A stretch of 64,000 nucleotides of DNA from positions 1 to 64,000 of the forward strand of contig NCGL01000009.1 in the NCBI GenBank assembly GCA_002256935.1, read 5' to 3'. A program made the position numbers and the translations under genes. Source of the DNA: Bdellovibrio sp. 28-41-41 (GTDB taxonomy: Bacteria > Bdellovibrionota > Bdellovibrionia > Bdellovibrionales > Bdellovibrionaceae). Below are positions 5,924 through 50,457 of this stretch, piece after piece (positions within the stretch are counted from its first letter, which is position 1; every line of letters begins with the position of its first letter). Below the pieces are notes generated by a model. That model did not search any database, was not told the DNA's origin, and saw only the letters and a program-made list of their open reading frames with translations.

Positions 5924-6081
5924 GGGACTCCTTATAGGTTAATTTGTTTTTCATCGAACGCGAGAAGTCCTAGGCAAGAGCGGTGCTAGCTTGCTGAGGC
6001 CTTGAAATCTAATTGAAATTCGTTTATTTCAGAGTAAGATTGAAAATGATCCGAACAGCGAATTTTTCCAGCGAGGTAGAC

Positions 6082-6690
6082 ATGAAAGCATTTATTGACG
6101 AAGCCTTTGGTAGCGCCATCATGAATTTAAAACGTATGAACGAGTCCGATGAAATCAAAGGCAAAGTGGCAGAGGCCGCGCAAATGATCGTCGATTCCTG
6201 CGCTAAAGGTGGGCAGTTACTAGCGGCCGGTAATGGCGGCTCAGCGGCTGATGCTCAACATATGATTGCTGAATTGATTGTAAAACTAGGTCCAGATCGT
6301 TCGCCGATTCGCGGTATCGCGCTGTCAACAGACACATCAATCATGACGGCTGTTGGTAATGATTATGGTTATGATTATGTATTTAGCCGTCAGGTTTATG
6401 CGCACATGAGACTGGGCGATTTGTTTTTAGGTATCACTACGTCTGGCAATTCACCTAATATTCTGCGTGCTCTGGAAGCGGTTAAGAAATCGGGAGGCAA
6501 ATCGATTTTGCTTTCTGGTAAAGACGGCGGAAAATGTAAAGCTCTGGCGGATTTGACGATCTTGGCTCCGGGTGAGACTACGAATATGATTCAAGAATGT
6601 CATCTTTTGATCTATCACACACTGTGCTACCTGATTGAGAAAGGGCTCGCTGATCGTGGAGTCATTCAATACAACGATAAAAAAATCTAG
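6082..6690 (+). CDS. gmhA: Phosphoheptose isomerase (sedoheptulose-7-phosphate isomerase)
   Basis: SIS-domain isomerase converting sedoheptulose 7-phosphate to D-glycero-D-manno-heptose 7-phosphate, the first step of the ADP-heptose pathway for LPS inner core, in the cytoplasm. The hallmark GNGGSAADAQHM sits near residue 52, followed by the SIS core (STDTSIMTAVGNDYGYDYVF, GITTSGNSPN) and the C-terminal TNMIQECHLLIYHTLC segment. The longer frame starts with TTG at 6013. I choose ATG 6082 because GAGGT lies 7 nt upstream and the resulting 202 aa fits the usual length of about 190-200. Other heptose genes are not adjacent. An intergenic structured element follows immediately. Confidence 0.93.
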   Translation: MKAFIDEAFGSAIMNLKRMNESDEIKGKVAEAAQMIVDSCAKGGQLLAAGNGGSAADAQHMIAELIVKLGPDRSPIRGIALSTDTSIMTAVGNDYGYDYVFSRQVYAHMRLGDLFLGITTSGNSPNILRALEAVKKSGGKSILLSGKDGGKCKALADLTILAPGETTNMIQECHLLIYHTLCYLIEKGLADRGVIQYNDKKI

Positions 6691-6695
6691 ATTTA

Positions 6696-6969
6696 GAAAA
6701 ACCCCCGTTTTTTTGGAAATGAAGAATCCACATCTTTCTTTCGCTTTTGTTCAGGGTTAGGGCGGGGATCTTCTTTTTGAGGGATTTGTTTTTAAACACA
6801 TAAAAAAACCTCGGCAGTCCTCGTCGGCGCTGAATCCCTGTCTGCGGAACGTTTTTTTTCATGTGTTTAAAAAGAGAGATCGCAGAAAAGGAAGACCGAG
6901 CTTGAATTGGCGCTTTTCAAAAAAGGCCGTTACGCCAATCAAAAAAATACACACGCCAGCCTGTTTTTT
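6696..6969. ncRNA. Structured repeat element, copy A (candidate RNA or hairpin mobile element)
   Basis: This region is homologous to 50161-50457. Shared blocks in order: GAAAAACCCC (6696-6705), GCGGGGATCTTC (6762-6773), GGAAGACCGAGCTTGA with TTGG after one variable base (6890-6910), an A-rich block ending in CACGCC (6952-6957), and a T-run (6964-6969). The middle differs completely between copies but folds in each: here TTTTTAAACACAT (6789-6801) pairs with ATGTGTTTAAAAA (6861-6873), extended by A7 against T8, enclosing a 43-nt GC-rich loop. An additional ATTGGCG/CGCCAAT hairpin lies at 6906-6937. The strand is uncertain; the 3' T-run favours plus. It lies between convergent genes. I do not recognise a known RNA family. 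Confidence 0.6.
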
Positions 6970-6980
6970 CCGGGGCGTAA

Positions 6981-7014
6981 AAAGAAAAAACCCTGCTGGG
7001 GGAAGCAGGGTTTT
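6981..7014 (-). terminator. Terminator of the ABC importer operon
   Basis: On the minus strand AAAACCCTGCT and AGCAGGGTTTT (plus-strand 7004-7014 and 6987-6997) form an 11-bp stem with a 6-nt loop, followed by a T-rich run (plus-strand A-run 6981-6990). It lies about 200 nt downstream of the ATPase gene that ends at 7216. A second small hairpin (GTCTTT/AAAGAC near 7027-7043) lies between them. Confidence 0.7.
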
Positions 7015-7215
7015 AGGGGGGCAACCGTCTTTGGGGGAAAGACTTTGTGGCTGCTTCTGACTTTATAGTATTGCAACGAGTGGGCCAGGGTGCTGGCTTC
7101 AGATTTGTTAATAAGTCGGATTTAACGGCCGGGCCATAGTAGTTACGTTTCGCGCACGGATATCATGGCTTCGTTTACGTACCATTTTTAGATGTCTCGA
7201 AATGGAATGGGAAAT

Positions 7216-50160: not shown

Positions 50161-50457
50161 GAAAAACCCCGGATTTTAGAAAGGGATGGCTGTCTTCTTT
50201 CTAAAACCGTTTTGGGGGTGGTTGCGGGGATCTTCCTCTTGATGGAGACTTTGTATTTTAGGAGGACGCCATCCATGGCTCAGGCAGCCGGTTGGCTACG
50301 CCAACATTACCGCATCCATGCGGCGGCTAGGCGCCCCCGGCTGAGCCTCCTAAAATACAAAGTCTCCATCAAGAGGAAGACCGAGCTTGACTTGGGTTTT
50401 AGAAAGAAAACAGCTCTCCAGTATTAAAAAATTACCCACGCCGCTACCTTTTTTTGT
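50161..50457. ncRNA. Structured repeat element, copy B (candidate RNA or hairpin mobile element)
   Basis: Homologue of 6696-6969. Shared boxes: GAAAAACCCC (50161-50170), GCGGGGATCTTC (50224-50235), GGAAGACCGAGCTTGA plus TTGG (50375-50395), A-rich block ending CACGCC (50437-50442; 62 nt after the previous box start, identical spacing to copy A) and T7 (50449-50455). The hairpin is striking: 50231-50265 and 50346-50380 are a perfect 35-bp inverted repeat. Outside an asymmetric internal loop, a second stem of 20 bp with one mismatch closes the structure (50189-50208 with 50395-50414). The 80-nt loop is GC-rich and itself folds (GTTGG/CCAAC at 50291-50305, CCGCAT/ATGCGG at 50310-50323). It lies between divergent genes; the strand is not certain. 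Confidence 0.65.

Follow-up and report, generated by a model that had tools for sequence, protein, structure and literature searches.

The palindrome at positions 50231 to 50380 of the window (the whole 64-kb stretch of DNA that was analyzed) belongs to a family of hairpin elements, at least 76 in number, in Bdellovibrio-type bacteria. Judged from sequence, there is about an even chance that these elements encode a repeated, minus-strand structured RNA of the CsrA-binding type, mounted on a long duplex handle. The minus-strand RNA would form a long, near-perfect duplex topped by short hairpins, two or three in number, of which two usually have an A(N)GGA loop. Its likeliest role would be CsrA binding, either as a decoy RNA or as an untranslated region that responds to CsrA. 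The sequence of the handle would be free to vary, and its arms would stay matched because template switching within the palindrome at replication would copy changes from one arm to the other. Selection on the RNA would clear much of the remaining unpaired stem positions. A broader proposal, which we hold tentatively, is that the elements constitute an undescribed, Bdellovibrionota-wide class of CsrA-binding RNA, with perfect handles continually rewritten by template switching and with multiple copies acting as decoys.

Architecture and distribution of the element

The inner stem consists of two exact arms of 35 nt (50231 to 50265 and 50346 to 50380), 80 nt apart and 100% complementary, as the initial annotation had stated. 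Its judgment that such a repeat lies far above chance is borne out by arithmetic, which gives an expectation of about 2e-14 in 64 kb for loops of up to 400, and no other perfect stem in the window reaches 18 bp. The enclosed loop is indeed GC-rich, with a GC content of 0.675 (67.5%) versus 0.42 window-wide, a level reached by 0.03% of 80-nt windows. The RNA fold of the inverted repeat is far more stable than that of shuffled sequences (z of -10.3 on the plus strand and -11.8 on the minus strand), and that of the loop on its own is only mildly so (z of about -1.2).

The loop corresponds to the apical domain (50266 to 50345), the conserved part of the family, here of type A and with the minus strand as the presumed RNA strand. 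The two hairpins already recognized within it are present. Hairpin H1 (50310 to 50323, CCGCATCCATGCGG) reads CCGC-AUGGAU-GCGG on the minus strand and exposes a six-nucleotide GGA loop with the CsrA-type motif, and H2 (50291 to 50305, GTTGGCTACGCCAAC) reads GTTGGC-TAC-GCCAAC and shows stem covariation from GC to CG. A third small hairpin, H3 (50268 to 50279, GCCATCCATGGC), had been overlooked; on the minus strand it reads GCC-AUGGAU-GGC and provides a second GGA loop, in which CGA replaces GGA in some copies. Also missed were an imperfect outer stem (50174 to 50208 with 50395 to 50429), 80% complementary and conserved in position within the genus, and a set of conserved unpaired blocks that separate the two stems or form the ends of the element. 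On the plus strand, these blocks comprise the left side of the interior loop (50209 to 50230), a conserved scaffold with GGGGA at its end and then TCTTCC; the right side (50381 to 50394), with the scaffold motif (GGAAGA)CCGAGCTTGA; a left end motif, AAAAACCCC, at 50162 to 50170, common to most genus copies; and a right end motif, TTACCCACGCCGC, at 50432 to 50444, followed by a T run.

That the palindrome belongs to a dispersed family had likewise escaped notice, as had a second copy in the same window, at about 6695 to 7015 on the plus strand, which has the same scaffold, a type B apical domain and partly decayed stems. This copy immediately follows an open reading frame at 6013 to 6690. Searching G000, the genome of the window (4.0 Mb, 153 contigs), at the DNA level returned further copies. 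The scaffold motif together with a covariance model added to these and also identified copies in two species of the same genus, Bdellovibrionaceae bacteria UBA2351 and UBA2316, but detected none in the remaining three of the six genus members. Across the phylum Bdellovibrionota, where 291 genomes were searched, the model had matches in 19 further genomes. The 76 copies analyzed come from the window's genome, the two genus species and these 19 others, and their number is a lower bound since strict filters apply in large searches; the folds of 49 model-found copies were inspected by reading. There are up to about 15 loci per genome. Within the genus, one scaffold carries two apical types: type A, with three small hairpins, includes the copy at 50231 to 50380, and type B, with a different tip, comprises the copy at 6695 to 7015 and seven others. 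An additional apical variant occurs at G000:C79, G000:C53, G004:C51 and G004:C151.

The existence of a dispersed family rules out a chance palindrome, and copies in independent genomes rule out a recent duplication or an assembly artifact. A virus-borne element was also considered: scans of viral contigs with three other family motifs found none, and six 17-mer matches in viral contigs all lacked the hairpin. Spread of the genus scaffold beyond the phylum was likewise dismissed, the hairpin being present at 5 of 53 exact 17-mer matches in genome contigs, all of them from UBA2316 or UBA2351.

Stem turnover and loop conservation

The stems vary in sequence yet remain paired. Across the inner stems of the 76 copies, 2662 of 2774 pairs are Watson-Crick, at a mean arm identity between copies of 31%. 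An alignment of 18 type A copies has standard pairs in 98.6% of its cells, falling to 39 to 50% in a control in which the partner was slid by one to three columns. Two-sided changes affect 37 of its 52 pairs. In a strain comparison directed at uncompensated divergence of the arms, as the initial annotation had proposed, ten related copy pairs, mostly at orthologous sites, showed 72 two-sided versus 13 one-sided changes, and the 18-copy alignment holds 207 cells changed two-sidedly and none changed one-sidedly to a wobble. Two copies with common flanking DNA (G004:C133 and G005:C98) differ at nine stem pairs two-sidedly and at one one-sidedly. Two others, 3' of the same ribosomal protein gene (G028 and G303), differ two-sidedly at 12 of 34 aligned pairs and one-sidedly at one, and their loops are identical at 51 of 52 positions. 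Loss of the element is seen as well, with a remnant at G005:C49 where G004:C175 has the full copy. The idea that the loop might be a cargo does not fit these comparisons, in which conservation lies in the loop and variation in the stems. Of the two reasons that had been offered for the survival of so perfect a stem, maintenance agrees with the retained pairing, and recent origin is unsupported because the family occurs across several families of one phylum.

Since two-sided change without wobble intermediates is the outcome predicted by template switching, these stem patterns suggest arm-to-arm copying in DNA in addition to selection. Strict selection for pairing is an alternative and can act jointly with template switching. 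Template switching at replication has been proposed for RNA hairpins and can both create and maintain perfect stems (PMC8794818); as it can keep the arms identical, the survival of a perfect stem need not imply function alone. The hairpins of that study resemble ours in having two-sided changes that keep the stem perfect, but their helices comprise 2 to 10 consecutive pairs, whereas the stems of the repeated family described here measure about 35 bp. Both within a single genus and at orthologous sites, one-sided changes are greatly outnumbered by two-sided ones, and template switching is therefore testable in a strain series; stems of roughly 35 bp that form a natural series of this kind bear on how both sides of an RNA stem can change without a broken or wobble intermediate.

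The loops behave differently from the stems. A(N)GGA is conserved in predicted hairpin loops across relatives, with the exception of type B. Predicted hairpin loops hold GGA on the minus strand in 52 of the 76 copies (at least two such loops in 35) and on the plus strand in one. Outside type B, C(N)1-2GGAUG was found on the minus strand of 65 of 68 copies, on the plus strand of 1 of 68, and in 2.7 after shuffling; its commonest forms are CATGGATG (n = 37) and CAGGATG (n = 23), with N variable. The hairpin stem around the GGA motif varies by genus (CCGC, GCGC, CGGC or TCGC), so the part that has been kept is the loop rather than the stem. The motif agrees with the published consensus of CsrA SELEX ligands, RUACARGGAUGU in mostly six-nucleotide loops, and with the CsrB repeat, CAGGA(U/A/C)G (PMC7652899). 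The SELEX ligands are mostly short-stemmed (PMC7652899), which counts against a CsrA-binding RNA on a long handle, as do the H3 loops that read CGA, the type B tips, which do not fit the CsrA-type motif, and copies G053, G057a and G039a, which are without it. A single csrA gene is present in each of six of six genus genomes; three of these six members have csrA and no detected copy of the element, which again speaks against the CsrA reading.

Probable RNA strand, genomic context and competing explanations

The residual wobbles favor an RNA from the minus strand. Transition-type stem mismatches correspond to G-U pairs 55 times in minus-strand RNA versus 9 times in plus-strand RNA (p 3.5e-9). 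With type B excluded and longer stretches used, the counts were 51 and 15, and 30 copies were minus-biased versus 4 (p 6e-6); both p values are optimistic because some copies share ancestry. Strand-symmetric mutation would be expected to yield zero bias of this kind. Several results run against a minus-strand CsrA-binding RNA: the wobbles of the outer stem (28 to 19) lack a clear strand bias, a simple scan of the window copy found no sigma-70-like promoter on its minus strand, and minus-strand terminators, counted at the left end, are unenriched (6 of 73 copies). Small RNAs of Bdellovibrio have been reported by RNA-seq in a paper that does not mention CsrA (PMC3627812).

The copies are mostly intergenic and mildly favor positions just beyond intrinsic terminators, which read into 18 of 73 copies at the left end versus 6 of 137 control stretches. 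Several sister-genus genomes have copies inside the interval between rplL and rpoB (gene names read from translated ends). Both facts would suit a role in halting or buffering transcription from one gene to the next, as an intergenic terminator, attenuator or insulator, but we consider this quite unlikely. The initial annotation had called the stem too perfect to be a terminator, and an ordinary terminator is excluded, position 50380 being followed by CCGAGCTTGACTTGGG with no immediate T run. A terminator scan left the whole stem uncalled, the window copy stands between divergent genes, and such a role leaves the conserved GGA loops unexplained. Copies show a mild tendency to lie 3' of the left-hand gene (45 of 74, p 0.08), and a strong orientation rule relative to that gene failed on the same count. 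A CCCC/GGGG pairing within the scaffold was also considered as a terminator and set aside, as by eye it is not conserved across copies. In G051 (L238:1850-2680), two copies inverted to each other occupy the rplL-rpoB interval.

Patchiness raises the question of mobility. The family could be a non-autonomous, MITE- or REP-like mobile repeat with no host function, its hairpin being read by a transposase that needs conserved loops, and we regard this as unlikely, although several features are in its favor: the elements are multicopy, patchy and missing from three of six genus members; the C75 copy is absent from the orthologous sites of three genus genomes; one scaffold carries two apical types; copies occur in inverted pairs; the remnant at G005:C49 reflects a deletion; and Y1 transposase genes exist in these genomes. 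Such genes occur in element-free genomes too, however, and none of the ten checked in G000, G004 and G005 has the hairpin nearby. The empty sites allow neither a target duplication nor a clean junction to be defined, copies are maintained at orthologous sites across species, and strand-biased wobbles are unexpected for a DNA parasite. The wobble bias also stands against a cruciform or single-stranded hairpin that, like integron attC sites, would be bound at the DNA level by a nickase or recombinase. The zero one-sided wobble changes of the 18-copy alignment would agree with pairing by DNA rules, but the copies are single or in inverted pairs with no arrays seen, and the link to a recombinase was looked at for Y1 transposases alone; we consider this explanation quite unlikely as well. 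Beside one and the same gene, G000:C70 and G004:C202 have different apical types in opposite orientation, which suggests that one site has been used repeatedly.

Comparison with known RNAs and repeats

No Rfam family scored at or above its threshold for the element at 50231 to 50380. The closest resemblance in form is to TwoAYGGAY (RF01731), to which the copy at 50231 to 50380 aligned on its minus strand over model positions 1 to 168, full-length but below threshold, at 21.8 bits versus a gathering score of 43; none of the genus copies searched reached an E value of 1. Like that RNA, the element has a long, poorly conserved stem below two hairpins with AYGGAY loops, here AUGGAU at 50314 to 50319 and 50271 to 50276 on the minus strand. 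It differs in that the type A element has a third hairpin, and in that TwoAYGGAY was described from Clostridia (PMC4333381), whereas the present element is a dispersed, multicopy repeat with a near-perfect stem. The motif study that proposed TwoAYGGAY as CsrA-binding also mentions tandem G-A pairs in a stem (PMC4333381). We do not assign the element to this class, although from its sequence it may function in a similar way. A match to MIR9672 was below its cut-off and covered the long stem only.

The CsrB/CsrC and RsmX/Y/Z decoys share with the element the placement of GGA in hairpin loops, and its CAGGAUG and CANGGAUG match the CsrB repeat and the SELEX consensus (PMC7652899). Those decoys carry many GGA hairpins per RNA, whereas there are usually two here, set on a perfect duplex and spread over up to about 15 loci per genome. 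REP/BIME, YPAL and other stem-loop repeats (PMC2267715) are likewise dispersed intergenic hairpins of about 100 to 300 bp, but they are recognized by shared sequence, of which the stems of the present family have almost none and the tips do have some. At the ten Y1 loci of G000, G004 and G005, no gene flanked by the repeat was found, and a REP/RAYT link was not supported. Six weak Y1 transposase (RAYT-like) genes lie on G000 contigs C24, C126, C58, C119, C14 and C81, none near a hairpin.

If the CsrA reading is right, the family would give predatory bacteria a small-RNA arm of their Csr system and would bear on the proposal that TwoAYGGAY RNAs bind CsrA. Multicopy CsrA decoys, if that is what the elements are, could help predators to switch between attack and growth states. 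In the distant genome G208, several copies (L228 to L235) have an extra plus-strand hairpin, resembling CGCA(N)GGAUGCG, that lies outside the inner stem, so that GGA loops could be present on both strands.
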